DNA from: Theobroma cacao
Lineage: Eukaryota > Streptophyta > Magnoliopsida > Malvales > Malvaceae
Assembly: GCF_000208745.1 (NCBI RefSeq)
Contig: NC_030857.1
Location: forward strand, 19,529,399-19,593,398
Reading direction: 5' to 3'
Length of the DNA stretch: 64,000 nucleotides
Position 1 is the first letter of the stretch. Every line of letters starts with the position of its first letter. Positions 11,585 through 64,000 of the stretch are shown piece by piece. Made by a program: the position numbers and the translations under genes. The notes beneath the pieces are model-generated. The model had not been told where the DNA came from and made no database searches. It saw nothing but the letters and a program-made list of their open reading frames with translations.

Positions 11585-11662
11585 GGGTTTAGGGTTTAGG
11601 GTTTAGGATTTAGGATTTAGGTTCATGGTTAGGGTTAAGGGTTCAGGGTTCAAGGTTGAGGG
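11585..11662 (+). repeat. Telomere-repeat block T0 (degenerate)
   Basis: GGGTTTAGGG units pass into variants (TTAAGGG, TTCAGGG, TTCAAGG, TTGAGGG). The block lies between the inverted satellite and the T-run of E2 and is the most proximal of nine such blocks. It contains the shared variant string GGTTCAGGGTTCAAGGTT. Confidence 0.85.
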
Positions 11663-11687
11663 TTTTTTTTTATGTTGGAAATTCACA

Positions 11688-11705
11688 CAGGGCCCAACTA
11701 CCTTG
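11688..11705 (-). other. E2 3'-terminal hairpin HP1
   Basis: On - the arms are CAAGG and CCCTG around the loop TAGTTGGG, giving one A-C mismatch. E2 is one of two copies in which the stem is imperfect by a mismatch. Confidence 0.5.
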
Positions 11706-11940
11706 TTAAATTTTATTAATAACGAAATAAGAAGTAAAAATGAGGGGGACATAAACCGTACCTCCAAGTTACATGATCATAAGAGAGTTTTAGAGAACCA
11801 CCTAGTGTAAGAAAATCTATTTTATGTGCATAACTTTTGATGCTACAATAAAATAGATATTCCCTAGTATTACATTGAGACCATATACTAAGATAACATT
11901 TAAAACAGAAAATGTAAGTAAGCAAAGCACCTAGAAATGG

Positions 11941-11991
11941 GTGTTTCATTTTATAACCATCTTTTTTACTATCGTCATAAAATTGAAACAC
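11941..11991 (-). other. E2 3'-UTR hairpin HP2
   Basis: The outer arms GTGTTTCA/TGAAACAC continue into TTTTAT/ATAAAA with one bulge, giving a stem of roughly 15 bp. Confidence 0.6.
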
Positions 11992-12061
11992 ATCCATATT
12001 ACAAAAGTCTATGTGAAAAACTAAATAAGGAAAATAAACTAGGAGTACTACTCCTTTACAT

Positions 12062-15000
12062 TCATTTAAACCGAACATAAGGTAAACAAATTTTATCTTA
12101 CCTAATTATGCCTTTGAGCTAACCCTCTGCTTGTGAAAATACTTGCAGGATCCGATGCATATGCCCCTGATTTGCGAGATGGTCTGCTGCTTGGTTCCCT
12201 TCTCTATGAATGTGCGAAATCCGAAACGAGATACCACTCAAGGATCTGCGGATGGAACCAAGCAAATACCGAGTCCTAGAGGATCCCTGATGGCCCTCAT
12301 CTATCATGTGCACGACTACTTTTGCATCCATTTCAATCCAAAGTCTAGAAATATTATGCTCAATGCACAAAAGTAAACCTCTATGAAGTGCCATTAATTC
12401 TGCCTGTAATGAATCACAAGGTCTAAATTTTTCAAAAAATCCAAAAATCATGGTACCTGTATGGTCTCGAAGAAGTCCTCATTCTGCAGCATTCTGACGA
12501 TTGTGCTTGGAACTACTATCAACATTCAACTTAAACTCATTTGCTGATGGTTTATGCCAAGAGAATATTTTTGGAGGTTGTGAGACTGCCTGCTGAAATA
12601 TTATACCCTATGCCTGAGCAATCTGTAGATCTCCCTTCCATTGCCATCACTAGAACTGGCTCCCATGAAAAAGTTGGTGGATGAGTTTGAGTACTTTCCA
12701 CACCACTCTATTAGAATACATACCAAGGTTCCTATGTTTCACATCATTCCTTTCAAACCATAAGAACCAAAAAATGAATAAAGGCATTAACGTGCGTATG
12801 TGTCCTTTTTTCGTATAATCTCCGGAGTACAACCATACCCATATAATCTGATTAACATTTTGGGGATGAATAATGTTGATTTGGAAAAATTTCGCAAAAT
12901 AATTCCAAACCTGTATAGCTATTGGGCATTCCCACATGACATGCAAGAGAGATTCCTCTGAATTGCAATGTTGACATTTAGAAGCAAACTGGAAACCCTT
13001 GGTTTTCAACCGTAAATCAATTGGGATCCAATCCTGTAATAACCTCCAAAGGAAGAAAGAGATAGTTAAAGGAATGCTTTTATGCCAAATTAAATCAAAC
13101 ACTGGATTTACAGACTGACGTTATCGAACTATCTCCCAAGTGGACTTAGCAATGAATTGCCCATCCGAGGTAGGCACCCAATACGCCCTATCATCACTAG
13201 AAGGATTAAATGGAGTTTTTAAAATTTTTGCCACAACGTCCTCCGACACCACATTGTTCAGCTTATCCACGTTCCATTTACCATCATCATAGAAATAGGA
13301 GACTCTCGTCATCGATGATGCAAATAATGGAAAATGATTAACCAATGAGGTATCACCCATCCAACAATCATGCCAAAAAAATAACTCACCCTTACCAATC
13401 CACCACCTAATGTAATGCTCTGTGGTTGGACAGTTGGCAAACATCCGTTTCCATGTTTGTGAATCATGAAGTTTCAACTGAACGTACCTCAAAATTTGGG
13501 CAGTACAATATTTAGTCCGCATAAATTACGTCCAAATGCTGTTACAAGATACAAACCTCCACCAAAGCTTCATGCTAAAAGCCTCAAACACATCACCAAG
13601 GCCTCGGATGTCTAATCCTCCCTCACTGGATGGCAGAGTGGTTTTATGCCACGCACTCCAATGAATGTGTCTAGTGCCTACTGAGCCTCCCCACAAGCAA
13701 TTATTGAACATTCTGTCAATTTTCTCAATCACACAAATAGGGGGCTTAAGGTCCTAGAGCAAATAGATAGGTAAAGAAGACAGAACACTCCGTAATAATG
13801 TAATTCACCCACCCAGAGATAGAATTTTATTGTCCCATCCTTCTATACGCTCCCGAATCTTTTCCACCAGTTCATCAGATAACATTACCCTTTTCGGACC
13901 TTTATAAAGTGGCACCCCTAAATATGTGATAGGCAAGCATTTATGGATGAAGCCAGTAGCTTGAGAGATTATCTATTTAGGCGAATTTGCCACATTTCGA
14001 TGAGTGATAAAACAGCTTTTAGAGTGGTTTATTCACTGTCCAGAAATCTCCTCATATCCCTGCAAGAACGTTAGGATTTTCTGCAAAGAGAATTTGGCAC
14101 CATTAGTGAAAATAATAATATCATCCATAAAAGCCAAGTGACTGACTGACATGGAGCAATCGAAAACATAGTGCAGAGATGGATACTGAGCAAATAAAGC
14201 ATTTAACCCTCAGAATAAATATTCGACAGCCAGAATGAACAAAAGAGGAGAAATGGAATCGCCCTGTTTGAGTCCCCTTTTTAACTTGAAATATCCCACA
14301 GCACCTCCATTAATCAGCAAAGAAAACCAGCAATTAGATATGCAACGGCGGACCATGCTAATCCACTGAGAATTAAAGCAGAACTGCTCTAGCATTCTAT
14401 AAAGGAAATTCCATTCAAGCCAGTCATATGCCTTCATCATGTCCAACTTGAGAGCTATATTTCCACCCCTTCACTTTCGGTCAATCTTCCCAATTAATTC
14501 TTGTGCAAGTAGGATGTTGTTGCTAATCAGTCTACCCCCTACGAAACCACTCTGATTATCTGTAATAATGGACGAAAGCACCTTTGCTAGACGATTAGCT
14601 AAAATCTTAGTAATGATTTTATTCAACACATTACAAAGACTTATCGATCTAAAGTCGCTCCATGTCGAGGCATTAAGATTCTTGGGCAGCAGTACAATTG
14701 TTGTGGACGTGATTCCCCTTGGGAGGTCAGCCCCATGAAAAAAATCCACTACTGTGTCCAAGGGGTCATTTGCAACAATATCCTAACATTGTTGATAAAA
14801 ATAAGAGGAGAATCCATCAGGGCTAGCAACACTATCCTTGTCGATATTAAAAACTACCCCTTTCAGCCCCTCCCTGAATGGCTCTACACATAAACTAAGA
14901 TTATCGTTATCAGAAATAATAGCAAGAATCAATGAAGCATCAAACCTGGCCATATTACACGGTTCCTTCTTCATAAGGAAGAAAAAGAATTCAACTGCAG

Positions 15001-16165
15001 AAGACTTTACAGCATCCGGTTCTTCAATCCAACTACCATCCAGATTTTGAATCTTAAATATGTGGCTTTTGATTCGTTTCTTCTTGACCTGCATATCGAA
15101 AAACTTGGTATTACGCTCACCCTTCACAAGCCATTTAATACTAGATTTCTACTTCTAGAATGATTCTTCAACACTAAGATAATGATTAAGCTGAGCATAT
15201 GCTTTGTTTATTGCTGCCCGATTCTCAAATGATTGCTCTTGTTGGAAAATTAATTCACAATCTGTAGCTCTTTGTTCTGCCACCTTCAAGTTGTGAAATA
15301 TGTCTCCAAAGACCTCCTTATTCCACCTTTTCAGTGACTATTTTAACCGACATTTTTTCGTCGAAAAAGCTTGTGAACTTGAGCTAATAATGGGAAGATT
15401 CTAATTCTGTTCCATAAATTTTTTGAACCCATGATGTAGTACCCAAGCGTGTAAAAACCGAAAGAACGATGGTACTTTGTCTTGGTTTTTTGAGCAGAAA
15501 ATCAGTAATGGGCAGTGGTCCTATCCATCCCTATTTAGGTGTTGTATACGTGTAGATGCAAAAAATTCTGCCCAATGATGATTATACACCATTCTGTCTA
15601 ACCTTTGAAACGTACGATTATTGGTCCAAGTGAATGGATTTCCTTCATAACCGCCATCCATTAATCCACAATCGAGTAAGGCTATAGCAAAGTCTTCCAT
15701 AACACCTCAATGCGGCACAACATCATTTAACCGTTCCCCACTGTTTAAGATGGCATTAAAATCACCCCCTACTATCCACGGTGTATAAATATTAGCTAAC
15801 AAGCTTCTCATGCAGTCCCACAGCACTAACCTCTCTGACCTGGTACATTTGGCATAAATAAAAGAAGCCAACAAAGGAATCTCCAACCATGGTATGGTGA
15901 GCTTAACATGAAGACATTGTACATGGTCCAGTAACACTTCACAGCTCAAATCAGAAGCATGAAACAACCATATTTTCTGAGAGCGATTCATAAAAAAATT
16001 TTCAAAACCCTATTTTCTTTTGATAAAGTCAGCTTTAGTTGCATCAACCATAGGTTCCAAAATGACTAAAATTTTTATTTTGTGCAATAACTGTAATTTC
16101 TTGATCCTTCTGTGGATTACTGCACTTGAAATACCTCTTACACTCCAAACTAGTGCACTATTCAT
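12062..16165 (-). pseudogene. E2 ORF2, decayed endonuclease-RT-zf-RVT-RNase H
   Basis: The start is at 16165 (MNSALVWSVRGIS) and the stop TGA at 12062-12064 after PYVRFK. The span of 4104 nt equals the intact design, so indels cancel overall, but at least eight stops or shifts break it. Recognisable pieces are endonuclease (15707-16165), the linker helix region (14783-15127), RT finger and palm (14210-14761), RT thumb (13526-13732), pre-zf-RVT region (13121-13522), zf-RVT (12650-13102) and RNase H (12119-12451). The RT active site reads FMDD near 14130, an Ala-to-Met change beside the catalytic pair. It cannot encode a functional protein. Confidence 0.88.
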
Positions 16166-17066
16166 GATCGGGTTCTAGCTGCATAACTCATAGAGATAGA
16201 ATCTTCATCCGAGACCCCATCATTTTCCCTCATATCCACGACTTTTTTTGAGTCCAAATTGATTAATTTCCTAATTGAAGCTGTAGTGTCTGAATATCTC
16301 TTATGTCTTACTCGTGGATACACTTCCAGTTTTGCAGTGTTAGTTTTTGTAACAGTTGGAATATCACTTAATTCCTTATTATACATGCACTTACTAGAGG
16401 CTGACTGCAAAATGGGAGGATTGCCATCATTTTCTTCCATCCGTTCACATGAACCGGCTATTGAATATAAGACCCAAATCTGTCTTGCTAGGTCCAGCGT
16501 CTGGCTTGCACCGTGCCCAGCTCTTGGACTATGTTCTCCACTTCCTTCTAACATATCAGCTGATAATTGCAAACCCCTTGACCCATTACTAGCAGTATGC
16601 TATTCTCGCACCTGTCGTATAGCTGCTGCTTGCAGTGAATGGACAGACAGGCAGTTTTTTAATTTTTGACCCACAGTTACATTTCCAATCCCATGCAACG
16701 ACGTCGCGGCTTCTTCTGCTAGAACTGCTGAATCCATTTCCCTCGTACACATTGCTTCATTCTGCCCCCCGAGCCCACTTTCATCCCTTAACTGTTTGTG
16801 CCCAAGCGATAAGGTTGCTGTCTGTGTTGGAGCCTTAATAAAATAATTTTTTTAATTTGCTCCCGCACCCGCTTGTCCTACTTCATATTGCAACGTCACA
16901 TCACCTGTAGGTGGGCTATGTTCCCCACTCCCTTCTAGCATGTCTACTGGCTTGTTATGGTCCGTCGGCCCACTCTCTATCATTTGTTGGTTTCCCCATG
17001 ATCTAAAGCTGTGAGCCGTGCTGCATGCTTCACAATATAATTTGTTGCTTTCTCATTTATACTTGT
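16162..17066 (-). pseudogene. E2 ORF1, 5'-truncated C-terminal part
   Basis: The last 136 codons (16162-16572) are open and end YAARTRS followed by TGA, which overlaps the ORF2 ATG as ATGA (16162-16165). The conserved tail features are present: YNKELSDIP, RYSDT, and SDEDSIS before the terminus. Upstream to about 17066 the frame is broken by stops. The DUF4283-like domain and zinc knuckle are missing because the copy ends there and telomere repeats take over. Confidence 0.82.
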
Positions 17067-17146
17067 TGAGGGTTGAGGGTTCAGGGTTCAAGGTTAGGAT
17101 TTAGGGTTTAGGGTTTACGGTTTAAGGGTAGGGGTTAGGGTTTAGA
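17067..17146 (+). repeat. Telomere-repeat block T1
   Basis: About 80 bp of degenerate units (TTGAGGG, TTCAGGG, TTCAAGG, TTTAGGG, TTTACGG, TTTAAGGG) separate the truncated E2 from the T-run of E3. It contains the shared string GGGTTCAGGGTTCAAGGTT (17077-17095). Confidence 0.85.
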
Positions 17147-17173
17147 TTTTTTTTTTAAACTGAGAAAGGCACT

Positions 17174-17191
17174 CAAGGCCTAGTTACCCTG
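17174..17191 (-). other. E3 3'-terminal hairpin HP1
   Basis: On - the arms CAGGG and CCTTG surround TAACTAGG; the stem has five pairs as RNA with one G-U wobble. It is kept even though the rest of the 3' UTR is deleted. Confidence 0.6.
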
Positions 17192-17352
17192 TTAAAATTT
17201 ATTAATTACGAAATATAAAGTGCAAAGGAGGGGAACATGAACTGAACCTCCAAGTTACATGACCATAAGAAAATTTAGGAGATGCACCTAGAGTAAAAAG
17301 TTTGAAACCGAAAGTGTACTTTGCGATGTCAATTCTTCTCTGGATTAGTGCA

Positions 17353-18276
17353 CTAGGAATACCTCTCGCGTTCCCAACTAGTTGCAAAGTTCACCGAGAT
17401 GGCATCTTCATCAGAGTCCTCATCATTTTCCCCCATGTTCGTGGCTTTGTTTGAGGCTAAACTTAATATTTTATCAATTGAAATTTCAGTGTCTGAATGT
17501 CTCCTACGCCGTATCATAGGATAAACCTCGATTTCTGTTAAATTTGTTCCGGAGAAAGAGGGAAACGAAGGAACATCACTTAGTTCTTTATTGTACATGC
17601 ACTTACCCGAAGTGGACTATTGGGTGGGAGGATTGTTAACATAGTCTTCCATCCTTTCCCGTGGGCATGTAACTGTTGGATTCCATCCACTATTAGTCTG
17701 ATTTGCCTCTGATGGATCAACCCGGTATTGGTCATCTATTCTTTCGTTCTGACATTCATTTATCCAATTACAAGACTATGTTCTCCACTTCTTTCAGCTA
17801 AACCAACTGACAGTATCTGGCTAGACGACCTATTTTATGACATTTGTGGACCATCCCCTTGCAAAGGGGCCGTTGACCCTTCCAATGGTGCCTTGGAGTA
17901 ATTTTTAATTTTTTCATTGACATTAGTTTGTAAAAAAATCTGCCTTAAGGTCCCATCACCCTGAACCGGCCTTGCTGTGGCCATTTCCTTTCGACCCATG
18001 ACTTTATCCACTATTGGTGTTATTGAGCTGTCCACCTCGACATGTGCTTGCACAATGGTCGAAGACTTTTGGACCAAAAAGTCACTTTTTGGGCCTTGTT
18101 TGTTCGCTTCATGAAGGCTGGCATCAATCATCTGTACATCTTGCTTACGTTGACTTTTTTTGTTTTCATTATTTTTATTGATTTTTGCATGGCTCTCCCT
18201 TTCTGCAGATTTCTCGTCTTCTCCTGCATGGACAGCGTCACAAATGACTTTCTCTTTTGTTGATTTTGTTACTCGA
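17353..18276 (-). pseudogene. E3 ORF1, C-terminal half
   Basis: The open pieces 17353-17598 and 17835-18131 carry ORF1 linker and tail sequence. Tail motifs include YNKELSDVPSFPSF, RRRRHSDTEISIDKI and SDEDAISVNFATS. A deletion of about 25 bp removes the ORF1 stop and the ORF2 start, so the ATGA junction is absent and ORF1 reads on into ORF2-derived sequence as WERERYS. The N-terminal half with DUF4283 and the zinc knuckle is missing. Confidence 0.8.
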
Positions 18277-18563
18277 GTTAGGGTGTAGGGGTTAGGGGTT
18301 AGGGTTTAGGGGTCAGGGGTCAGGGTTCAGGGTTCAAGGTTCAGGGTTTTAGGGTTTGAGGTTTGAATTTTGGGGTTTAGGGTTTGGGGGCTTGGGGTTT
18401 GGGGTTTGGGGGTTTAGGGTTTGGGGTTCGATGTTGGGGGTTTGGGGTGCAGGGTTCAGGGTTCAGGTTCAGGGGTTTGGGGTTGGGGGTTAGGTTTAGG
18501 GTTTAGGGGTTAAGGGTTAGGGTTCAGGGTTTAGGGTTTAGGGTTTAGGGTTTAGGGTTTTAA
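18277..18563 (+). repeat. Telomere-repeat block T2 (variant-rich)
   Basis: About 290 bp with TTAGGGG, TTCAGGG, TTTGGGG and TTGGGGG variants on the left, ending in several canonical TTTAGGG units beside E4. The segment 18320-18346 is repeated almost exactly in the distant block T7. Confidence 0.88.
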
Positions 18564-18587
18564 TTTTTTTTATGCTGAAAATTCACG

Positions 18588-18605
18588 CAGGGCCCAACTA
18601 CCCTG
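18588..18605 (-). other. E4 3'-terminal hairpin HP1
   Basis: CAGGG, loop TAGTTGGG, CCCTG on -. This is a perfect 5-bp stem of the consensus type. Confidence 0.6.
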
Positions 18606-18839
18606 TTAAGTTTTATTAATAACGAAATAAGAAGTACAAAGGAGAGGGGCATAAATCGTACCTCCAAGTTACATGATCGTAAGAAAGTTTCAAAGAACCA
18701 CTTAGAGTAAGGAAATCTATTTTATGTGCATAACTTTTGATGCTACAATAAAATAGATATTCCCTAGTATTACATTGGGACCATATACTAAGATAACATT
18801 TGAAACAGAAAATGTAAATAGAGAAGCACCTAGAATTGA

Positions 18840-18890
18840 GTGTTTCATTTTATGACCATCTTTTTTACTATCATCATAAAATTGAAACAC
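18840..18890 (-). other. E4 3'-UTR hairpin HP2
   Basis: The outer arms GTGTTTCA/TGAAACAC continue into TTTTATGA/TCATAAAA with one bulged base, giving a stem of about 16 bp. Confidence 0.65.
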
Positions 18891-18960
18891 CTCCATATTA
18901 CAAGAATCTATGTGAAAAACAAAATAAGGAAAATAAACTAAGAGTACTACTCCTTTACAT

Positions 18961-21900
18961 TCATTTTAACCTAACATAAGGTAAACAAATTTTATCTAAC
19001 CTAAGAATGCCGTTGAGCTAACCTTCTGCTTGTGAAAATACCTGCAAAATTCGGTGTTTATGCCCCTGATTTGCAAGATGTTCTGCTACCTGGTTCCCCT
19101 CTCTATGTATGTGAGAAATCCGAAACGAGAAACTACTCAAGGATCTGCCGATGGAAGTAAGCAAATACCGAGTCCTAGAGGATCCCTGATGGCCCTTATT
19201 TATCATGTGAACCACAACTTTTGCATCCATTTCAATCCAAAGTCTAGAAACATTATGCTTAATGCACAGAAGTAAACCCCTATGGAGTGCCATTAATTCT
19301 TCCTGTAATGAATCACAAGGTCCAAAATTTTCAGAAAATCCAAAAATCATGGTACCTGTATGGTCTCGAAGATGTCCTCCTCCCACAGCACTCTGACGAT
19401 TATGCTTGGAACTACCATCAACATTCAACTTAAACTCACCTGCTGATGGTTTATGCCAAGAGAATATTTTTGGAAGATGTGGGACTGCCTGCTGAAAAAT
19501 TATACCCCATGCTTGAGCAATCTATAGATCTCCCCTCCATTGCCACTAGTGGAATTGCCTCCCATGAAATAATTGGTGGATAAGTTTGAGTACTCTCCAC
19601 ACCACTCTGTTAGGATACATACCAAGGTCCCTATGCTTCGCATCATTCCTTTCAACCCATAAGAACCAAAAAATAAATAGAGGCATAAACGTGCGTATGT
19701 GTCCTTTCTTCGTATAATCACCAAAGTACAGCCATGTCCATATGATCTGATAAATAGTCTGGGGACGAACAATGTTGATTTGGAAAAATTTCGTAAAATA
19801 ATTCCAAACCTGTGTAGCTATTGGGCATTCCCACATGACATGCAAGAGAGACTCCTTGGAGTTACAATGTTGGCATTTGGAAGCTAACTAGAATCCCTTG
19901 GTTTTCAACTGTGAATCAACTGGGATCCAATCCTGTAATAACCTCCATAGAAAAAAAGAAGTTGAAAGAGGAATGCATTTATGCCAAATTAAGTTGAAAA
20001 CATGATTTACAGGCTATCGTTGTCGAACTATCTCCCAAGCGGACTTAGTAGTGAATTGGCCATCCGAGGAAGGTACCTAATATGCCCTATCATCACTGGG
20101 TGGATCGATCGAAATTTTTAAGATTTCTGCCACAACATCCTCCGGCAACACATCGTTCAACTTGCCCACATCCCATTTGCCATTATCATAGAAATAGTGT
20201 ACTCTTGTCGTAGACGATGCAAAGGATGTAAATCGACTAACCAATGGTGCTTCACCCATCCAACAATCATGCCAGAAAAATAACTCACCCTTACCAATCT
20301 GCCACCTAGTGTAATGCTCTGTAACTGGGCAGCTAGCTAACATCCGTTTCCATGTCTGTGAATCATGAAGCTTCGGTTGTACATTCCTTGGAATTTGACC
20401 AACACAATATTTGCTCCGCATGAATTGTGTCTAAATGCTGTTACAAGTTAAAAACCTCCACCAAAGTTTCATGCTAAAGGCCTTTAACACATCACCTAGG
20501 CCTCTGATGTCTAATCCTCCCTCATTAGATGGAAGAGTGATCTTATGCCACGAAGCCCAATGGATTTTTCTAGTACCTGCTGAACCTCCCCACAAAAAGT
20601 TGTTGAACAATCTGTCAATTCTTTCAATCACACAAATAGGAGGTTTGAGGACCTGGAGCAAATAAATAGGCAGAGAAGATAATACACTATGTAATAGTGT
20701 TATTCGCCCTCCCGGAGATAATACTTTGTTGTCCCATCCTACTATACGGTCCTAGATCTTTGCAACTAAGTCATCAAAAAACATTACCTTTTTTGGCCCT
20801 TTATAAAGAGGCACCCCCAAATAAGTGATAGACAAGCATTTATGAATGAAGCCAGTAACTTGAGAAATGATCTGGGTGCGACTGTTTGCCATATTTCGAT
20901 GAGTGATGAAGCAATTCTTTGAATGGTTAATTCGCTGTCCTGAAATCACCTCATATTCCTGCAAGAACAATAGAATTTTCTGCAATGAGGATTTCGCACC
21001 ATTAGTGAAAATAATGATATCATCTGCGAAAGCTAAGTGACTGACTGGCATAGAGCAGTCAAAAAGATAATGCAGAGAAGGATAAGTGGCAAACAAAGCA
21101 TTCAACCCCCGAGACAAATATTCCGCAGCCAGTATAAATAATAACGGAGAGATGGAATCGCCTTGTCGTAGCCCTCTTTCAGACTTGAAAAAACCCACAG
21201 TACCACCATTTATCAGTAAAGAAAACCAACAATTAGCAATGCACCGACGAACGATGCCAATCCACTGAGAATTAAATCCAAACTGTTGAAGCATTCTGAA
21301 AAGGAAATCCCATTCAAGCTGATCATAAGCCTTCATCATATCCAACTTGAGAGCTACATTTCCACCCCTTGACTTTCGGTCAATCTTCCCAATTAGCTCT
21401 TGGGCAATAAGGATATTGTCGCTGATAAGTCTCCCCCCTACGAAGCCACTCTGATTATCTGTAATCATGGAAGGGAGCACCTTTGCAAGATGGTTAGCTA
21501 GAATCTTAGTAATGATTTTATTTAAAACATTACAAAGACTTATCGGTCTGAAGTCACTCCATTTCGAGGCATTATTATTTTTGGGTAGCAACACAATAGT
21601 TATAGACGTTACTCCCTTTGGGAGGTCAGCTCCATGAAAGAAATCAACTACTGCATCCAAGAGGTCATTAGCAATGATATCTCAACATTGTTGATAGAAA
21701 TAAGAGGTGAATCCATCAGGGCCAGCAACACTGTCCTTATCAATATTGAAAACTGCCTCTTTCAGCTCCTCCATTGAAGGCACTGCACATAAACTAAGAT
21801 TGTCATTCTCATAAATAATAGCAGGAATCAACGAAGTATCAAACCTGGACATGTCACATGTTTCCTTTTTCATGAGAGAGGAAACAAATTCCATTGCAGA

Positions 21901-26276: not shown

Positions 26277-26288
26277 TGTTTTTTTTTT

Positions 26289-26606: not shown

Positions 26607-26630
26607 TTTTTTTTATGTTGAAAATTCACG

Positions 26631-26933: not shown

Positions 26934-27006
26934 ATCCATGTTACAAAGTTCAATTAGAATAACTAAACAGGAAAAATAAACTAGGAGTATTACTCCTTTA
27001 CATTCC

Positions 27007-48163: not shown

Positions 48164-48173
48164 TTTTTTTTTT

Positions 48174-49563: not shown

Positions 49564-49600
49564 TTTTTTTTTTTTTTTTTTTTTATGCTGGAAGTTTCCT

Positions 49601-49618
49601 CAGGGCCCAGCTACCCTG
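49601..49618 (-). other. E8 3'-terminal hairpin HP1
   Basis: CAGGG, loop TAGCTGGG, CCCTG on -; a perfect stem. AATAAAA lies a few bases upstream, a plausible polyadenylation signal. Confidence 0.6.
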
Positions 49619-53899: not shown

Positions 53900-56790
53900 G
53901 ATCTGGTTCTAGCGGCAAAACTTACTGAGATAGAATCATCATCAGAGATCCCATCATTCTCCCCCACATCCACTGCTTCCTTCGAGGCAAGATTGATTAT
54001 TTTTCCAAGTGAAACTGCCGTATCCGAGTGTCTCCTTAATCGCACCAGCGGATGAACTTCAAACTCTGCAGAAGGAAGTCCTGATACAGAAGGAACATTG
54101 CTCATTTCTTTATTGAGAGAACACTTACCCGATGCTGACTCGAAATTGGGCGGGTTATCTTCATTTTCTTCTATCTTTTCATGTGAACAGGCTGGTTCTC
54201 GAATATTCCCAACTAATTGCCGCGATTGACTTTCACCTTGGGCTTCCATTGGACTGTACTCACCATTTCCTTCTAACAAAGTCACTGACATATTTTGACC
54301 CCTGTACCCACTCTCCGACATTTGTAGTCCCTCCCCATGTCTAAGAGTTGCGTCCTCCATAAAATAATTCTTTTCACCTGTACTTGCTTGCAAAAATTCC
54401 TGCACCGCTATCCCATCACCCTCTGCGGACACTGTTTGGTTCAGAATCCTCGCACCCGTGATACATGTTTGGTCCTGCTGAGCGTGCATGTCGCGTTCTA
54501 CTTCTGATGCTTTCACCATATGCAAAGGCACCCGGTCACAAGCCCTTTCTGGACAAAACGCATCCTCACCATGCGGACCAGGTTCTGCCGCACCACCTGT
54601 CTGCTTTTGTTTATTTTTTTCCGTTTTCTTTATTTTCCTCGACCCACTCTCTGGCATCTGCCGTCCTTCACTCTGCCATGAAGCTTTTTCCTGCATTGAA
54701 AGTACATTAAAGGAATTTTTTAATTGCTGAGCTCTGCCTACAGTTTCAGCTTCCTGCCGCAACATCCCATCATCATCTGCAATCACAGTTAATTCTTTAT
54801 CCCTCAGCCCCGTGGCTTTTTCTATTTGCTCACCATGCACATAGGATGAAGGACGTGAAACTGAGTATTCTACTGCTGGTGCGAACTGTCCTTCACTCCC
54901 GATCAACATTGTATCGTTCACTGCCCGATCAAATGAGCTTTTCTGGATTTTTCCTTTCTTATTATTTTGATTTATTCTCTTGCCTAGACATTCCTCTTCC
55001 TTTTGCTCTAGATTGCCAGTAGCTGATGCACATTCAACAGGTTCCTCCGCATTGCCTACCTGCCCAGAACCATTCATTAACCTCCCAGCGACTGGCTGCA
55101 GCGATTTAGTAGGCTCTGCATCGCTCGTCACCGACACCAATGTTCTCTCCCCATGCTTTCTTCCCAAGTTATGTTTACCTACAGCCGATGTCCCCTCAAA
55201 CCTCTTACTATCAACTGCCCGTGGACTTAAAGAATCTGGTGCAACATGCTCTACAAACCTCATCTCGTTTTCTCTTGCGACTATTCCCGATGCACTCTTC
55301 TCCCCATGCACATAGCCAGATTGTTGTTCTGCATTTCTAGTCCTCTGATCGCCTTCCGTTTCATTCATCTTCATGTCCTCATCTTCTTGCTGTTTTCCAT
55401 TCCCACTCATTTCATTTGCAATTTTATTTCCACCCAGAGTAATATTGTTGACTAACACTGCATGTCCCTGTTTTTCAGTTCGAGTCTGAGCCACTTCTCC
55501 ATCTCCCGCGATAGTTTGAAACCTGTTGAACACTGGAACACCAGAGTTCTCAAGGTCTTGATCTGACCTTAGTTCCCTACCATGCCGATCCTTTGCACCA
55601 CTGATGCCAACTTTGCCCACGGCTTGCCAACGTCGGGGCTGTTTATCTGGTTCTTCCGTGCACAAGTTTTTTTCTTTTTCCAAATGATCTCCTGCATCCC
55701 CTTCCACCTTCTTTCCTCCATCAGTCCGTGTTGATGGCACTACCGGCAGCTTTTCTATACCTTTGTTTTGTGGTTTACCAGATTTTGGTTTATTCCCCAA
55801 CACAATGCATTCAACTTCTTTGTGCCCTACGTGACAACAGTGATCACAATAATCTGGCATCCTTGCGAACTCCACTTTCTGAGAATAACCCCCCGTGACT
55901 GCTCCCGTTTCTCTATTTCGAATCACTATCCAGACTTCCTCTACAGGCGGCTGTCGACAATCAAACTCCACACAGATCCTTGCTACACTTGGGCGAGATC
56001 CGTTCGCTGTTGCCTCGTCCACATAAAGCGGTTTGCCTACCGTTTTAGCTATCAACATCAAAGCCGATTTTTCATACAGGTGAGCCTTGAGATTAGGAAA
56101 AGAGATCCAAACCGGGACCAAAGCTGATTCCTTTTCCGCTTCAAAATCTGGGTTCCATTTAAACACTCTCATTTTTTGATTCAAAATAAACCACTGCTGC
56201 TTGACCCAAAGGCGATTAAAATCTTGTTCATTGGACAAGTGTATCAAAACATGCTTATAGTCCATCCACCGGATCTCATATGCACCCGATAAGCCTATTC
56301 CTTTAAACGCTTGTCTTATGTCCTGCAATTTGGGCATGCGAGTGAATTTTCCAACTAGAGAGTGGACGAAAGGACGAGCCAAAATCTGGATCTCATCTTC
56401 ATAAAACATGGCGGCTGGTCTATCTTTGTATGTGCTTGGGTTCCTTGTGGGTGGGATTACAGGAGGCTTTTCTCCTGTTGCTATTGACAGGAACGATTTT
56501 TTTATTGCCCTAGGGGATAAAGGTTGGTGGTTTTCTTCTGGGAGGGCTTGTGGGAAGCCATGGTTAACTGGCGGCTGTAGATTTCCTTCTCGTATGGCGT
56601 GGGGGAAGCCATTGTTTTGTGACGGTTGAAGGTTGTTTGGTGGCAGACGGTTGTGGGTTACCCCGATCTGCATGGAAAGTGGTGTGGTGGCCGGCAGGGA
56701 GGTACTGGCAGGGTCCGGCGGCCTACCGGCGGCCATTCCTTGAGAGTGTGGGAGGGGCGGAAAGTGAGAAAAGTTGAGAGCGTTTTCCAC
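53896..56790 (-). CDS. E8 ORF1, intact DUF4283 and CCHC zinc-knuckle protein
   Basis: Plant LINE ORF1 proteins bind element RNA. The frame is open for 964 codons from GTG 56790; the first ATG is codon 19 (56736, MAAGRPPDP), giving 946 aa, and I favour that start. A 17-residue N-terminal duplication (NLQPSQNNGF, NLQPPVNHGF) covers about 53-86. The DUF4283-like fold lies at about 130-285 (YEIRWMDYKHVLIHLS, PVWISFPNL). The CCHC knuckle has C315, C318, H323 and C328. A hydrophilic, probably disordered linker of about 500 residues follows. The C-terminal conserved block contains RRHSDTAVSLGKI, SDDDSIS and AARTRS. Its TGA overlaps the ORF2 ATG (53896-53899), favouring reinitiation. No lesion is seen. 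Confidence 0.9.
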   Translation of the reverse strand: MENALNFSHFPPLPHSQGMAAGRPPDPASTSLPATTPLSMQIGVTHNRLPPNNLQPSQNNGFPHAIREGNLQPPVNHGFPQALPEENHQPLSPRAIKKSFLSIATGEKPPVIPPTRNPSTYKDRPAAMFYEDEIQILARPFVHSLVGKFTRMPKLQDIRQAFKGIGLSGAYEIRWMDYKHVLIHLSNEQDFNRLWVKQQWFILNQKMRVFKWNPDFEAEKESALVPVWISFPNLKAHLYEKSALMLIAKTVGKPLYVDEATANGSRPSVARICVEFDCRQPPVEEVWIVIRNRETGAVTGGYSQKVEFARMPDYCDHCCHVGHKEVECIVLGNKPKSGKPQNKGIEKLPVVPSTRTDGGKKVEGDAGDHLEKEKNLCTEEPDKQPRRWQAVGKVGISGAKDRHGRELRSDQDLENSGVPVFNRFQTIAGDGEVAQTRTEKQGHAVLVNNITLGGNKIANEMSGNGKQQEDEDMKMNETEGDQRTRNAEQQSGYVHGEKSASGIVARENEMRFVEHVAPDSLSPRAVDSKRFEGTSAVGKHNLGRKHGERTLVSVTSDAEPTKSLQPVAGRLMNGSGQVGNAEEPVECASATGNLEQKEEECLGKRINQNNKKGKIQKSSFDRAVNDTMLIGSEGQFAPAVEYSVSRPSSYVHGEQIEKATGLRDKELTVIADDDGMLRQEAETVGRAQQLKNSFNVLSMQEKASWQSEGRQMPESGSRKIKKTEKNKQKQTGGAAEPGPHGEDAFCPERACDRVPLHMVKASEVERDMHAQQDQTCITGARILNQTVSAEGDGIAVQEFLQASTGEKNYFMEDATLRHGEGLQMSESGYRGQNMSVTLLEGNGEYSPMEAQGESQSRQLVGNIREPACSHEKIEENEDNPPNFESASGKCSLNKEMSNVPSVSGLPSAEFEVHPLVRLRRHSDTAVSLGKIINLASKEAVDVGENDGISDDDSISVSFAARTRS

Positions 56791-56806
56791 TTTTTTTTTT
56801 TTTTTT

Positions 56807-57149
56807 CGTGTTTAGGGTTTAGGGTTTGGTTTAGGGGTTTAGGGTTTAGGGTTTTAGGGTTTTAGGGTTTAAGGGTTTAGGGTTAAGGGTTTAGGGTTTA
56901 GGGTTTAGGTTTAGGGTTTAGGGTTTTAGGGGTCAGGGGTCAGGGGTCAAGGGTCAGGGGTCAGGGTTCAGGGTTCAAGGTTCAGGGTTTTAGGGNAGGG
57001 TTTAGGGTTTAGGGTTTAGGGTTTAGGGTTTAGGGTTTAGGGTTTAGGGTTTAGGGTTTAGGGTTTAGGGTTTAGGGTTTAGGGTTGTGGGTCTAGGGTT
57101 TAGGGTTTAGGGTTTAGGGTTTAGGGTTTAGGGTTTAGGGTTTTTGGGG
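56807..57149 (+). repeat. Telomere-repeat block T7
   Basis: About 340 bp of mostly canonical TTTAGGG with a TCAGGGG/TTCAGGG patch at 56935-56990, an N at 56996, and a canonical run up to the E9 T-run. The patch matches 18310-18350 in block T2. Confidence 0.92.
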
Positions 57150-57192
57150 TTTTTTTTTTTTTTTTTTTTTTTTTTTAAGCTGGAAGTTCTCG

Positions 57193-57210
57193 CAGGACCT
57201 AGCTATCCTG
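57193..57210 (-). other. E9 3'-terminal hairpin HP1 with compensatory pair
   Basis: CAGGA, loop TAGCTAGG, TCCTG on -. The innermost pair is A-T where the consensus has G-C, with both arms changed together. Confidence 0.65.
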
Positions 57211-57316
57211 TTGAATTTTATTAATTATTCAAAAATTAAGGACAATAGGGAGGGGGGCATAACCTAACCTCCAGAGTTACACGGGATTGAAAAAAGTTAC
57301 GAAAAGTACCTAATAA

Positions 57317-57374
57317 GGAAAATGTAATTTTTTGTGCATATTTGTGAATGCAATCAAAAAATTGAAACACTTCC
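57317..57374 (-). other. E9 3'-UTR hairpin HP2 with compensatory pair
   Basis: The inner arms AATTTTTTG/CAAAAAATT (9 bp) differ from E8 (AATTTTATG/CATAAAATT) by a paired change. The outer arms retain GGAA/TTCC and TGT/ACA, and the apical stem is TGCAT/ATGCA. Confidence 0.7.
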
Positions 57375-57426
57375 TTGTTACAGGAGTTTAAATAATTACT
57401 AAAGAGAAATACGTAAAAGTAAATTA

Positions 57427-57439
57427 GGAGTACTACTCC
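57427..57439 (-). other. Conserved palindrome just after the ORF2 stop (E9 shown)
   Basis: GGAGTAGTACTCC on - can fold as GGAGT/ACTCC around AGT. Identical or near-identical copies occur after the ORF2 stop in E2, E4, E5, E6, E7 and E8; E1 has a degraded version. It also encodes the GVVL part of candidate ORF3. Confidence 0.5.
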
Positions 57440-57446
57440 TTTACAT

Positions 57447-60400
57447 TTATTTGAATCGTACATAAGGTAAATTTAATTTGTCTAACCTAAGAAATCCTCT
57501 AGTCTTACCTTCTACTTGCGTAATTACCTGCAGGTTTAGGTGCATATGCCCCTGGTTGGACAGATAATCTGCAACCTGGTTCCCTTCTCTGTGAATATGT
57601 GAGATCCGGAAAGATAAAATGTTCAAACATTTTCGGATGGAGGCTAACAAATATCTAGTCTGAGATGAACCATGATGTCCCTCCTGTATCATTTGTACAA
57701 CTTCCTGTGCATCCATTTCTATCCAGATTCTAGATATGTTGTACGCAATACATAACAGCAGTCCCCGATGTAATGCCATTAACTCTGCCTGTAATGAGTT
57801 ATGAGGTCCAAAATTTTCAGAGAAAGCAAAAATCATATTACCTGTATGGTCTCTGAGAAGTCCACCCCCAGCAGCATTCTGAAATGCATCTTTAGAACTG
57901 CCATCGACATTCAGCTTAAATTCATCAATCAATGGACGATGCCAGTAAATAATTTTTGGCGGATTCTGGTTCATTCGATCAAAACGAAAACCCCAATGTG
58001 CAGCAATATCAAGATCACCTCGCCATTGCCATTGACGTAACAAAGAACCCTGAAACAGTTGCCGTAACAATTTCATAATACGCCAAATAATTCTATCCGG
58101 ATACATTCCAAGGCCTCTATGCTTAGCATCATTTCTTTCCACCCAAAGATACCAAAGGATCAGCAAAGGCAATAATATTCGAATATGTCCAGGTTTAGTG
58201 TAATCCCCAGAATAATACCAAGCATGAATAATTTGCATAACATTGTTGGGGTTATGAACAGATATTTGAAAGAATTTCCCAAAATAAGTCCAAACCTGTT
58301 GTGCAACCAAACCATCCCAAAATACATGCATAATCGTCTCCTCCGATCGGCAACAAAGGCATTTTGATGCTAAATGGAAGCCTTTTAATTTCATCCGGAA
58401 CTCCACAGGAATCCAATTATTCACTAAACGCCATAAGAAAAATGAGACGGTAAGTGGGATACTTATGTGCCAAATAAACTTACCTAATGGATGGTTAGGT
58501 TGTTGTTGGCGAAGCAGTTCCCATGCACTCTTGGTGGAAAAATCTCCATTTGGCGTTAAAGCCCAATACGCCACATCTTCTTGTGTACAACTTATTGGGA
58601 TCTTTAATATCTCATTCACGACATTAGTTGGCAGTACAGTTCTCAATTTGTTTACATCCCACTCATTATCATGAAAAAAATAATGAACTTTAATCATGGA
58701 ATTAGAAAATGAAGGGAACGATTTTACCAGTGGGTCATCTCCAAACCAAATATCATGCCAGAAAGACAATTATCCTTTCCCGAGCCGCCACTTTATCTGC
58801 TGCCCTGTTGTGTCTCTCCCAATGATTATTCTCTTCCATGTAGGTGAATCGTGTGGTTTGGAAGTCACAGTGGGAAGAAGTTGTCCAGCACAGTATCTAG
58901 CTCTCATATATCGAGTCCACAAATTATTACAAGTTCGGAATCTCCACCATAATTTCGCAGTGAAGGCCTCAAAAACATCCTTCAAATTACGAATGCCCAA
59001 TCCACCTTCAGAACAAGGTAATGCTATTTTTCCCCATGCTGTCCAGTGCATCTTTTTACTATCCAGTGAACCTCCCCAAATAAAGGAATTAAAGAGTCTC
59101 TCAATTCGTTCAATAACAATCACAGGTGGCTTAAGCACTTGAAGCAAATAAATCGGCAGTGATGATAAAACACTTCGTAATAAAGTAATACGCCCTCATG
59201 GAGACAAAACTTTATTCTCCCATCCTGTAATGCGATCTCGAATCTTATTAATAAGGGAATCAAACAACATTACCTTTTTATGTCCCTTGTACAGAGGGGC
59301 TCCCAAATATGTGATGGGTAAATTTGTTTGCTGAAATCCTGTGGCTTGTGCTCTAATCTGGCATCTCGAGCTAGATACACTTTTGGCTGTGATGAAGTTA
59401 CTTTTGTTGGGATTAAGCTTCTGCCCTGAAATCTGTTCATACTCCTGCAAAAATAATAACACTTTCTGCAAGGCAGCTTTGCTTCCATTAGTAAAAATCA
59501 TAACATCATCCGCAAAGGCAAGGTGACTGATATTGATGGAGCATCCAGATTGATATTGCAATGAGCAGAAATGAGAGAATAAATTATTTAATCCACGAGA
59601 TAAATATTCAGCAGCAATGATAAATAAAAGTGGTGAAATTGCATCTCCCTGTCGTAAACCCCTCTCAGATTTAAAGTACCCAACTGACTGCCCATTGATC
59701 AATAATGAAAACCAGCAGTTCGAAATGCAGTGTTTAAGCATATCTATCCACTGAGCATTAAATCCAAATTTCTCCATCATCAAATATAAAAAACCCCAAT
59801 TTAGCTTATCATAAGCTTTCATCATATCTAGTTTTAAGACGACATTACCTCCTCTCGATTTATGATCCAGTTTACCAATCAAATCCTGGGCCAACAGTAT
59901 GTTGTCACTGATTAGTCTCCCTTTCACAAAGCCACTCTGGTTTTCAGATATCAATGAAGGCAATACTGTAGATAACCGGTTTGCCAGTAGCTTGGTGACA
60001 ATTTTGTTGAGGACAGTGCATAAGCTAATTGGTCGAAAATCCCTCCAGTGCGTTGCATCCAGTTTTTTTGGTAACAAAATCAGAGTTGTAGAAGTAACTC
60101 CTTGTGGCAACCTTGCACCTCTAAAAAAAACCTGAATAGCATCGAGAAGGTCATCTGCAATTATATTCCAACAATGTTGATAAAAGAAAGCGGAAAACCC
60201 ATCTGGACCCGCCACACTATTTTTATCGATCGCAAACACTGCCTCCTTAAGTTCAGATATTGTAGGCACTGCACATAAAAAATCGTTATCATGATCAGTT
60301 AATAACCGAGGAATTAATGAAGCATTGAACCTGGTGTTATCACTGCTGTCCGCCTTTAAAAGTTTAGCAAAATAGTCTACTGCTGAATTTTTAATCTGCT

Positions 60401-61550
60401 CTTGATCCTCCACAACCGAATCATCACAAGTCTGAATTCGGAATATCGAATTTTTCACTCTTATCTTCTGCATTCGCATGTGGAAAAACCGTGTATTGGT
60501 TTCCCCCTCTATCACCCACTTGACCCCTGATTTCTGTTGCCAGTATGCCTCTTCAACACTGAGCAGGTGGTTAAGTTTAGCATAGGATAAATTCATGTTT
60601 TCCCGGTTTATCGCGGACTGGTCTTCTTGAAACCGCTGTTCACTTTTCTCGGCCTGTTTCTCAGCTGCTCTAAGATTGCTGAAAATATCACCAAATACAT
60701 ATTTGTTCCAGCTTTTCAAAGCCTTCTTGAGCCTTAGCTGCTTCAACCAAAATGCCTGCATGCCTTGCTCTTGCATCGGTAAGTTCCAGTTATTCGCAAC
60801 AAAATCGAAGAAGCCATGATGCTTTGTCCAGCAATGAAGGAAACGAAATGATGAAGGCCGCGGTACAATGGAGTTAGAACAAGAAATTAAAAGTGGGCAG
60901 TGATCTGAACCATCACGGTTTAAATGTTGAACCCGAGTAGAAGTAAACTGAGCTATCCACTGTGGATTATAAAGAATCCGATCTAATCTTTGGAACATTC
61001 GGGAGTTAGTCCACGTAAACTTGTTGCCTTCAAACCCTGCATCTACTAGTCCACAATCAAGTAAGGCATTTGCAAAATCTTCCATGGCTCCCGTATGTGG
61101 GTCTGCACCCAGAAATCTTTCTTCCCGCCTTAAAATAACATTAAAGTCGCCTCCAGCCAGCCAAGGACCCTGTACATCCTCTGCAATACGTCTCATAAAA
61201 TCCCATAAAGCAAGTCGTTCCAGTCTCGTACATTTAGCATAAACAAATGAAGCTTGAATAGAGACAGGAAGCCACGGGAAAGATAATTGAACATGCAAGC
61301 ATTGTGGATGATCAAACCTGGTTGTGCAAGTGATTCCGTGCATCCAAAAAATCCAAATTTTTTGAAAACAATTAAAGGTCGCCCCCTCAAAGCCTAATTT
61401 TCTCCTAAAAAATTCAATTCTATCAACACTTACCATTGGTTCCAGAATCACCAATATCTTTATTTGGTGCATCATCTGCAGTTTTTTAATTCTCCGTTGG
61501 ATTGCTTTTCCAGCCACTCCCCTTACATTCCAAAGCAGGGCACTGATCAT
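57447..61550 (-). pseudogene. E9 ORF2: full-length endonuclease-RT-zf-RVT-RNase H frame with two stops
   Basis: One frame runs 1368 codons from ATG 61550 (MISALLWNVRGVA) to the TAA after PYVRFK. Only two internal stops occur: TGA at 59196-59198 (SPGGR motif, Gly) and TAA at 58770-58772 (probably Gln, GKGQ). Endonuclease 1-225 has GGDFN and DGSDHCPLL. The RT lies at about 470-760 with FRPISLC, NQSGFVKGRL, DMMKAYDKL, RQGDAISPL and LAFADDVMIF (about 681). zf-RVT is at about 995-1080 (AYWALTPNGDFSTKSAW, WIPVEF, CLCCRSEE). RNase H is at about 1208-1330, with acidic residues in NVDGS, QAELMAL, EMDAQ and VADYLS. It is formally a pseudogene. Both stops differ from sense by one base, so sequencing error, polymorphism or a very young copy are possible. 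Confidence 0.93.
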
Positions 61551-63871
61551 GGGAAAGTTCTGGTGGTATATTGCTTGGAGATGGATTCTTCATCAGACCC
61601 ATCCATCAACATCTGAGCATCATTTTCTGAAAGAATATCCTCTGTAGGGATATATAAAATTTCACTATCAGATTTTCTTCGTCTGGAAACCATGGGGTGG
61701 TATTCAATATGCTGGCTGTCCGAAACCTCTCTCGATTCCACATGGAGGACTGATATGCTGCTATTAACAGTTTCAGTTTGTTTAACTTGCTCTCGGCTGT
61801 TGTTCTCCTGTTGTTTGCTTACTTCCAAATGTGCGTGAAGGTCAGCAGAATTAGTTCCTGCACATGAAGGAACCAAGCTTATTTCTTTATTATAACCACA
61901 TATACCCAGGTTGGATCCCAAGTTTGGATCGTAGTCTGCATTTTCTTCCATCACTTCACGTGAACTAGCTGCAGGATCCCCCATTAAAACATTTTCTTCC
62001 AACCGTTGTATACTTCCTGTTACTACATGTACCGCACGGGAGAGGGCTGTATGAGAGTGAATAGTACCGAGTTTAGGAAAGCCACGAGAACTCACTACAC
62101 TATTACTTCCGAGTTGACTCAACTGCACCTTTGCACCATCATCCAACACCTTTTCACCGTCCATGTTAAGACGCTGCACCCCCTGTTTTGGACTCCCCAA
62201 GCATTGTTCGACGTCCGGTACTGTTTGTCCTTCGCTCTGCATGTCCGTCCCTGACAATCGGTCCTCAAGTTTTCTGATGTTCTTCTTTTTTGCTTTCCGA
62301 GACGTCACCCGACCTGCTTCCATCGCCCATTGAACTCGATCAAAATCTGCAATATTTTCTACACTTTCGTGAGTATCTGCTACTGTCTGCCAACTCTCAG
62401 CCATCAACGCCTGCACAGAACTTTGCTTAACCTCACTCTCCTTCTGCTTTGGGCCCTCGGTCACACCCACTGTAGAAGATTTTAGCTTGTCCCGATTCAC
62501 TCCATCTGCAGTCCGTATTATTGGTAGAGCCTCTAATATCGCTCCATCTCTAATCATCTTTTCCGAGCATCTTTCCATCACCTTCAACTGCCTTTCTTTC
62601 TCCCTAAAATTATTTTTTGAAAACTGCATGGTACTATTCACCTTCTCTGTTCTCCCCTGTTTTGCGGATCCAACATCCTCGCCATCCTCCATTGCTTCTA
62701 ACACCCTAAAACCATTAGAGATCTGCACGGGATATGCTCCACTACTCTCCAGATTGACTTCTACGCCGTGGGCATCCTTATCCCCGCTCGTGCCACCCTT
62801 TTCGACCTCCACCCATTTCATGCTCTGCTTTTTCGATTCCGGTTGGATCCAATTTTTTTTTTCCTCTCCATTAACCATTAGATCATCAGTTTCCTTACTT
62901 TTCATTCTTTTCCAATCATCATCTTCCTGCTTTTTATCCACAAGTGGCTTAGGCTGTGCCTTTCCTGGCTTATCCTTACTGTGACCCATCACCAGACATG
63001 TTGCAATATTATGTCCCACATGGCAACAGTGATTGCAATAGTCGGGAAGCCTGGCAAACTCCACTTTCTGTTGAAATCCTCTAGTGATGTTTCCTGTGCT
63101 TCTATCCCTAGTCACGATCCAGATCTGTTCAAGAGGGGGCTGCTGGCAGTCATACTCAACACACACTCGAGCCACACTTGGTCGTGTGCCATTTGCCGTA
63201 GCTTCATCAATATACAGTGGTCTCCCCACCGACTTAGCAATCATTAGGAGTGCCGATTTTTCATAGAGATGAGCCCGCAGGTTCGGGAAAGATACCCAAA
63301 CGGGAACCAAAGAGGATTCCCTTTCCGGTTGGAAATCCGGAGTCCACTTAAAGACTCTCATCTTCTGGTTTGCAATGAACCATGCTTGACGCATCCATAA
63401 CCGATTCAGATCTTGCTCATTAGATAAATGAATCAGGATGTGCTTATAATCCAACCAACGGATTTCATATGCACCCACTAGCCCGATTCCTTTGAAAGCA
63501 ACCCTAATATCATTCAACCGGGGCATACGTGAGAACTTTCCTACCAATGAATGTTTAAATGGTTGTGCAAGAGCAATGAACTCATCATCATAAAACGTCA
63601 CTGCCGGCCGATCTTTATACCAAAAGGGCTCTCGGGTTGTAGGGATTATGGGGGGTTTCTCTCCAGCCGCCACACTCAAAAAGGATTTCTTTTGGGCGCG
63701 GGGTGAGAGAGGAGATTTTTGAGAGTCTTTAACTTGCAAGCCTCCATTGTTGACTGGCGGCTGCAAGCTTTTTGCTTCCAAAGGCATGTGGGTGGCCCCC
63801 CACGGCATGTGGATGGACGAATCAGGAGGTGGGGGAGGTATAGAGGGGTCCGGCGGCCTGCCTGCCGCCAT
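61547..63871 (-). CDS. E9 ORF1, intact DUF4283 and CCHC zinc-knuckle protein
   Basis: 774 codons from ATG 63871 (MAAGRPPDPSIPPPP) to the TGA at 61547-61549, which overlaps the ORF2 start as ATGA. The N-terminus is Pro-rich; the DUF4283-like domain lies at about 92-250 (YDDEFIALAQPF, RMPRLNDIRVAFKGIG, YEIRWLDYKHILIHLS, PVWVSFPNL). The CCHC knuckle has C279, C282, H287 and C292. About 380 residues of charged, low-complexity linker follow. The C-terminal block has YNKEISLVPS, RRRKSDSE, SDEESIS and TRTFP. At 172 residues shorter than the E8 protein, most of the difference is in the linker. Upstream in-frame sequence continues to the 5' end without ATG, supporting this start. Confidence 0.92.
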   Translation of the reverse strand: MAAGRPPDPSIPPPPPDSSIHMPWGATHMPLEAKSLQPPVNNGGLQVKDSQKSPLSPRAQKKSFLSVAAGEKPPIIPTTREPFWYKDRPAVTFYDDEFIALAQPFKHSLVGKFSRMPRLNDIRVAFKGIGLVGAYEIRWLDYKHILIHLSNEQDLNRLWMRQAWFIANQKMRVFKWTPDFQPERESSLVPVWVSFPNLRAHLYEKSALLMIAKSVGRPLYIDEATANGTRPSVARVCVEYDCQQPPLEQIWIVTRDRSTGNITRGFQQKVEFARLPDYCNHCCHVGHNIATCLVMGHSKDKPGKAQPKPLVDKKQEDDDWKRMKSKETDDLMVNGEEKKNWIQPESKKQSMKWVEVEKGGTSGDKDAHGVEVNLESSGAYPVQISNGFRVLEAMEDGEDVGSAKQGRTEKVNSTMQFSKNNFREKERQLKVMERCSEKMIRDGAILEALPIIRTADGVNRDKLKSSTVGVTEGPKQKESEVKQSSVQALMAESWQTVADTHESVENIADFDRVQWAMEAGRVTSRKAKKKNIRKLEDRLSGTDMQSEGQTVPDVEQCLGSPKQGVQRLNMDGEKVLDDGAKVQLSQLGSNSVVSSRGFPKLGTIHSHTALSRAVHVVTGSIQRLEENVLMGDPAASSREVMEENADYDPNLGSNLGICGYNKEISLVPSCAGTNSADLHAHLEVSKQQENNSREQVKQTETVNSSISVLHVESREVSDSQHIEYHPMVSRRRKSDSEILYIPTEDILSENDAQMLMDGSDEESISKQYTTRTFP

Positions 63872-63948
63872 CCCGTGAGGTTGAGGAAGGGGGGGAAAGT
63901 GGGAAAATTCTAGAGCGTTTTTTGCACTTTTTTTTTTTTTTTTTTTTT

Positions 63949-64000
63949 GGTTTGGTTTGGTTTAGGGTTTTAGGGTTTAGGGTTTAGGGTTTAGGGTTTT
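63949..64000 (+). repeat. Telomere-repeat block T8, running off the window
   Basis: TTTGG units followed by canonical TTTAGGG begin right after the 21-nt T-run at the 5' end of E9 and continue to the right edge. Strand polarity is the same as in every other block, with the chromosome end predicted to the right. Confidence 0.9.

Follow-up and report, generated by a model that had tools for sequence, protein, structure and literature searches.

A clade of L1-type long interspersed nuclear elements (LINEs) probably lives in the telomeres of cacao (Theobroma cacao), making alternating arrays of LINE and telomere repeat by repeated telomere-primed rounds. The array considered here lies in the terminal 64,000 bp of contig C8 (C8:19529399-19593398; this whole stretch is referred to as the window), the right edge of which is the end of the contig. 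It comprises eight L1-type LINE copies, arranged head to tail on the minus strand between positions 11,663 and 63,948. Telomere homing of these elements is well supported by the flanks of the copies, their orientation and their distribution among chromosome ends.

The array at the end of contig C8

The eight copies are named E2, E2b and E3 to E8 (E2 to E9 in the original prediction) and are listed in the table. All gaps between them are filled with TTTAGGG repeat, either degenerate or perfect, whose G strand is on the plus strand. All eight 3' junctions consist of G-strand repeat followed by a T-run of 8–27 nt (9, 10, 8, 8, 11, 12, 21 and 27 nt, from left to right), and G-strand repeat is also what comes next at all eight 5' ends. 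A second T-run is present at the 5' end of the six full-length copies (10, 11, 13, 11, 16 and 21 nt) and is absent from both 5'-truncated copies. Between 11584 and 64000, there are 200 exact TTTAGGG units and 4 exact CCCTAAA units. The layout described in the original prediction (eight copies on one strand, G-strand gaps, poly(A) ends seated on G-strand blocks) is, thus, confirmed at every 3' junction, and the chromosome terminus that it placed to the right of the window coincides with the end of C8.

The open reading frames (ORFs) are those of a plant RNase H-bearing L1-type element with a poly(A) tail: Pfam recognizes DUF4283 in ORF1, and an APE endonuclease, a reverse transcriptase (RT), zf-RVT and RNase H in ORF2, the best solved-structure relative of which is human L1 ORF2p. 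Ordinary RNase H plant L1s (Paulownia, Zingiber, Primulina, Solanum) belong to the same family and have the same domain set, with 33–50% identity in the full-length matches listed. No Myb-type telomere-binding domain was found among the Pfam matches of four proteins up to an E-value of 3, and a search of the cacao gene models for telomeric peptides yielded no convincing case. The ORF2 sequences of E2 to E5 contain 12–22 stops and at most one frame change each, the stops often falling at reference Q, R or W codons, a pattern expected of C-to-T decay in methylated DNA.

Table. Features of the window, in order of position
Feature	Position	Strand	Remarks
E1, LINE of the same family, opposite orientation	1 to about 4526	+	Cut by window start; poly(A) end in AT-rich satellite, without telomere repeat
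AT-rich satellite (AAAATCCTTA-type)	4517..11580		Inverts near 10010; interrupted by solo LTR, 4662-5736
First G-strand telomere block	11584..11662	+	Adjoins satellite directly
E2	11663..17060	-	5'-truncated in ORF1; ORF2 with 22 stops
G-strand block	17061..17146	+	
E2b	17147..18277	-	5'-truncated; 3' untranslated region and C-terminal ORF1 only, ORF2 lost
G-strand block	18278..18563	+	
E3, full length	18564..26288	-	ORF2 exon stretches identical to gene model LOC108663047, which differs from E3 only at intron edges
G-strand block, degenerate	26289..26606	+	
E4, full length	26607..34456	-	
G-strand block	34457..34537	+	
E5, full length	34538..41997	-	
G-strand block	41998..42347	+	
E6	42348..48173	-	Internal portion of RT missing
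G-strand block	48174..49563	+	117 perfect units; N at 48482
E7	49564..56806	-	ORF1 (964 aa) and ORF2 (1116 aa) open; one frame change near ORF2 end
G-strand block	56807..57149	+	N at 56996
E8, distal-most copy	57150..63948	-	ORF2 with 2 stops; T-runs 27 (3') and 21 (5')
Last G-strand block	63949..64000	+	Ends at end of contig C8

Copies, junctions and leaders across the genome

Two censuses of the whole assembly were made, with the ORF2 of E7 (42 rows, from the best 41 of 2,682 candidates scored) and with the query P0018 (55 rows, from the best 52 of 2,734 candidates scored); rows were considered terminal when located within 100 kb of a contig end, the outer 100 kb accounting for 0.6% of the chromosomes. 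The first census yielded 26 terminal, 14 interior and 2 unplaced rows (two of the interior rows probably being a single copy) and the second yielded 30, 21 and 4, respectively. The 5' end faces the terminus in 25 of the 26 terminal rows of the first census, spread over 11 ends, and in 29 of the 30 of the second, spread over 12 ends; 4/14 and 7/21 interior rows run with their nearest end. Stop-free rows are terminal only (10/26 terminal vs. 0/14 interior rows for ORF2 in the first census; 9/30 vs. 0/21 in the second). Direct reading of 19 chromosome-contig ends (the C4 end lies outside this set) revealed LINE sequence of this family at 13, which answers the question, raised in the original prediction, of whether other ends carry it. 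A tree built from 3' ends placed 22 of 29 end-region rows in two clades without interior rows, eight interior rows lying near E2, E3, E4 and one copy from the C5 end.

For forty 3' ends, the sequence next to the poly(A) tail is telomeric in 27/31 end-region and 0/9 interior cases (P = 2.6e-6), and two further interior tails are likewise non-telomeric. The four end-region exceptions are one N gap after CCCTAAA, one ambiguous A-run and two truly non-telomeric ends, those of E1 (satellite) and of a copy at C8 start 9833. With the N-gap end counted as a 28th telomeric junction, CCC comes directly after the A-run in 24 of the 28, against an expectation of 4/7 for random phase (P = 0.002); this phase fits priming by the TTT-3' end of the G strand, whether nicked or terminal. 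For 11 interior copies, a target duplication was found in five (one 5'-truncated) and not found in five others (one with a mere 8-bp match), and one copy had no recognized tail.

Chromosome-end copies usually start, in the sense direction, with CCCTAAA repeats, irregular units such as CCAAACCAAACC, 8–27 A and a conserved TGGAAAACGCTCTCAAC-like stretch, the irregular units being absent from E7 and some other end copies. Three interior copies, within target duplications of 17, 12 and 19 bp (2–3 bases of which may be tail A), have the leaders AAACCAAACCCTAAACCACAAAACC-A13, CAAACCAAACCAAACCAAACC-A14 and ACCAAACCC-A13. As the same leader is found inside the target duplications of interior copies, the RNA itself apparently carries a telomere-like 5' leader. 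The C-rich part of this leader varies, like a tag acquired from a telomeric source copy, and oligo(T) and G-strand telomere-like units would be expected at the end of the cDNA. Short first G-runs at the 5' junctions (6/6 vs. 2/8, a post hoc comparison), once considered as telomerase start errors, were reread as element leader after the interior leaders had been found. A search with the leader pattern gave 110 matches with at most two mismatches, vs. 68 for a reversed control, and many matches are therefore due to chance. Among the 100 matches listed, 20 interior ones were considered (8 of the 10 exact matches, excluding the 2 that had already been identified, and the first 12 single-mismatch matches); 7 of these 20 were judged genuine, with at least 9 A directly before the motif, including 2 with strong and 1 with weak telomere-like tags. 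One interior copy with a 17-bp duplication (L053, C10:17449876-17451876) has about 37 nt of unrelated sequence 5' of its A-rich leader, perhaps reflecting another transcription start.

Free end, internal nick and other explanations

The arrays are probably built up as follows. The TTT-3' end of the telomeric G strand, exposed by a nick at GGGTTT/AGGG or constituting the chromosome's own 3' end, would pair with the poly(A) tail of the LINE RNA and prime the synthesis of a copy with its 3' end centromere-ward and its 5' end terminus-ward. The 5' leader of the RNA would contribute oligo(A), often after C-strand telomere-like units (CCAAACC, CCCTAAACC), and the last-made part of the cDNA would be oligo(T) and then units resembling GGTTTGG or GGTTTAGGG, forming a telomere seed from which the repeats could be rebuilt by telomerase or recombination; successive rounds would generate an alternating array. 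In this scheme, the priming strand, the function of the seed and the role of telomerase are inferred. In its furthest-reaching form, which we put forward tentatively and consider rather doubtful, a flowering plant would extend its chromosome ends by means of two alternating reverse transcriptases, with LINE cDNA made on the G-strand 3' end and bearing a telomere seed, telomerase providing the lengthening, and telomeric source copies leaving a telomere tag on some of the interior copies derived from them.

The original prediction, that a plant lineage adds LINEs to its telomeres beside telomerase, is upheld as regards the many ends, the near-constant polarity and the ordinary repeat alongside, but not as regards extension of the free end in the style of HeT-A, which we rate at slightly below an even chance. 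Polarity is no longer taken to demonstrate free-end addition: in the TTTAGGG repeat, TTT/A is confined to the G strand, and a nick there yields the same polarity. A serious contender, to which we give close to an even chance, is that the LINEs are passengers at internal nicks: the APE endonuclease would cut TTT/A on the G strand anywhere in the tract, as for TRAS and SART, and the LINEs would split existing repeats without contributing to chromosome-end function. Consistent with such nicking, polarity requires no free end, E7 and E8 retain the endonuclease motifs, interior copies are bounded by target duplications of the ordinary kind, and both flanks of E2 contain a common 20-bp variant motif, which fits insertion inside repeats. 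Against it, the age of the copies tends to decrease toward the terminus. The number of ORF2 stops and frame changes per kb falls in this direction in the window (5.5, 3.3, 3.0, 4.8, 0.66, 0.51, 0.50; rho -0.89, exact P = 0.012), T-runs become longer (P = 0.02 for 3' and 0.03 for 5' runs), and stops rise from distal to proximal over the six ends with at least two rows (P = 0.0075, or 0.027 without the window's end; one inverted C7 copy was left out of this test). In addition, the two flanks of a full-length copy in the window (six such copies) do not resemble each other any more than mispaired flanks do (P = 0.52 and 0.64, in tests of low power). An examination of whether repeat purity rises within each block had a mixed outcome, and no support is drawn from it.

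Besides the E2 flanks, several findings weigh against the reading of telomere-dwelling LINEs added toward the terminus. The age order is not significant if restricted to the N-free part of the window (rho -0.7, P = 0.23). Residence in telomeres is not exclusive: copies exist outside telomere repeats in the interior, accounting for 14/40 and 21/51 placed rows in the two censuses, and E1 lies in satellite. Dead interior copies are, moreover, undercounted, as both censuses scored the best candidates only. No LINE was found in the outer 2 kb, the only stretch read, of six ends (the starts of C2, C3, C4, C5 and C9, and the end of C7). A strong telomere-like tag is present in only 5/11 interior 5' ends judged genuine, three of these five having a checked duplication, and the assembly is a draft. 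The original prediction held that it would fail if most copies lay outside telomere repeats with ordinary target duplications; such copies do exist (duplications in 5/11), but none of the interior rows is stop-free and the eight interior copies in the tree fall outside the two end-only clades.

An ordinary plant L1 inserting at any T-rich site might also accumulate at chromosome ends through passive survival, if these gene-poor regions kept or shielded copies for longer. The existence of interior copies, located at ordinary AT-rich sites and flanked by target duplications, is compatible with this idea, which nevertheless seems unlikely given the contrast in poly(A) flanks between end-region and interior copies, the concentration of end-region copies in two clades without an interior member in the tree, and the restriction of stop-free, and therefore young, rows to the ends.

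It is more improbable still that arrays derived from a few old insertions were spread from one chromosome end to another by ectopic exchange between telomeres or subtelomeres. Some copies do, indeed, have a close relative on another chromosome (E7 at the C2 end, E8 at the C7 start), and 45 bp of non-canonical repeat is common to two telomere blocks of the window 38 kb apart (18310 and 56951). However, the window copies differ by 17–42% at the DNA level, with synonymous sites near saturation between lineages (pS 0.73–0.83), and dN/dS is low, at 0.09 in both computable between-lineage pairs (0.13–0.24 within the E2-E3-E4 group); the telomere sequence after the C2-end relative of E7 also differs from that after E7. 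Given this divergence and the ORF2 tree, in which window copies interleave with cacao proteins from other chromosomes, at least five LINE lineages landed independently in the array. The segmental duplication of a single old insertion, named in the original prediction as a possible refutation, is ruled out by the near-saturated synonymous divergence. A 20-bp variant is common to four telomere blocks (11638, 17076, 18322, 56963), and the variants shared between blocks hint at copying between telomere tracts.

The joining of unrelated contigs through the telomere repeat in which they end is the least credible explanation, as six LINE copies alternate with repeat in the N-free stretch 11584-48481 and the gene models of a separate cacao assembly place LINEs joined head to tail at chromosome boundaries, despite single Ns in two telomere blocks, many Ns in the C6-start region and the description, in excerpts of the cacao Criollo v2 paper, of a 454/Illumina/PacBio draft with gap closing. 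Both single Ns (48482 and 56996) lie inside telomere blocks, each directly 5' of perfect TTTAGGG repeat, and are probably gap-closure marks; the E6–E7 and E7–E8 links may, therefore, be gap-closure joins. In the other cacao gene set, 15 of the 26 locus-tagged matches listed lie no more than 14 tag numbers from a change of chromosome, covering eight chromosome ends (boundary tags 005953/005954; 016753-016760/016767-016772; 021518/021519-021521; 042327-042328/042331), four are clearly interior (018528, 043662, 043834, 044158) and seven are unplaceable; this placement assumes numbering along the chromosomes, as supported by the non-overlapping tag ranges. Of 37 cacao proteins, five continue past the end of one LINE into the next LINE or repeat its end, fused gene models being able to reveal same-strand neighbours only.

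Known systems and further observations

Zepp is a green-alga element that forms nested Zepp-in-Zepp clusters, and the Drosophila elements HeT-A, TART and TAHRE have variable 5' tags that come from neighbouring end sequence. Telomeric retrotransposons have been described in insects, Giardia, Chlorella, a fungus, a lizard and rotifers (excerpts of PMC10088271, which name no land plant), those of insects, fungi, Giardia, the green alga and the lizard lying beside telomerase repeats. A limited literature search found no land-plant case by title or abstract, a weak test of absence from print; no such case is mentioned in excerpts of the cupuassu telomere-to-telomere paper, and the string "telomer" is absent from the Criollo v2 paper's main text.

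Zepp, a LINE from the telomeric region of Chlorella vulgaris (PMC10088271), resembles the cacao elements in being of the L1 type, in belonging to the green lineage and in having accumulated at chromosome ends beside telomere repeat; by description, the cacao array is set apart by its flowering-plant host, its RNase H-bearing ORF2 and the telomere repeat in every window gap. TRAS and SART (silkworm, flour beetle), which belong to the R1 clade, are also APE-type LINEs present in telomere repeats beside telomerase repeats (PMC10088271), but they insert in opposite orientations, whereas the cacao LINEs are of the L1 type, have nearly one orientation and include interior copies. MoTeR1 and FoTeR, from the blast fungus and Fusarium, have their 5' ends terminus-ward, canonical repeats at their 3' ends and a short, often degenerate 5' motif, varying between strains in FoTeR (PMC12857005). 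These fungal elements encode a restriction-enzyme-like endonuclease, and no FoTeR was found elsewhere (PMC12857005), whereas the cacao LINEs have an APE endonuclease instead, two ORFs, a poly(A) tail and interior copies. HeT-A, TART and TAHRE form head-to-tail end arrays with outward 5' ends and poly(A) ends (PMC6410037). Drosophila telomeres lack a telomerase repeat, whereas cacao has TTTAGGG between copies, and free-end addition is putative; with this repeat in every window gap, the LINEs have not replaced telomerase repeat in the manner of HeT-A.

The arrays at many assembled chromosome ends suggest that LINEs home to the telomeres of a flowering plant. If this is the case, a crop genome would provide a new, experimentally accessible system for studying the sharing of a chromosome end by telomerase and LINEs, possibly a step toward telomeres of the Drosophila type, and the telomere-like RNA leader would constitute a concrete, testable mechanism. 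In practice, telomere calls based on TTTAGGG and the masking of LINEs may give a wrong picture of the chromosome ends of cacao.

The innermost LINE copies are reversed at three ends (window 1-11580; the C1 end, L020 4673-8900; and C5:39337082), giving the appearance of two arrays diverging from a common point, and those at the C1 end are accompanied by repeat with the C strand on the plus strand. At the C7 start (L013-L014, 18599-24829), two ORF2 copies of opposite orientation directly adjoin each other near 21.65 kb, forming either a real palindrome or an assembly fold-back. The solo long terminal repeat (LTR) within the AT-rich satellite of the window is 1,075 bp long (TGTTGG...CCAACA) and is flanked by a 5-bp target duplication, AAGAA.

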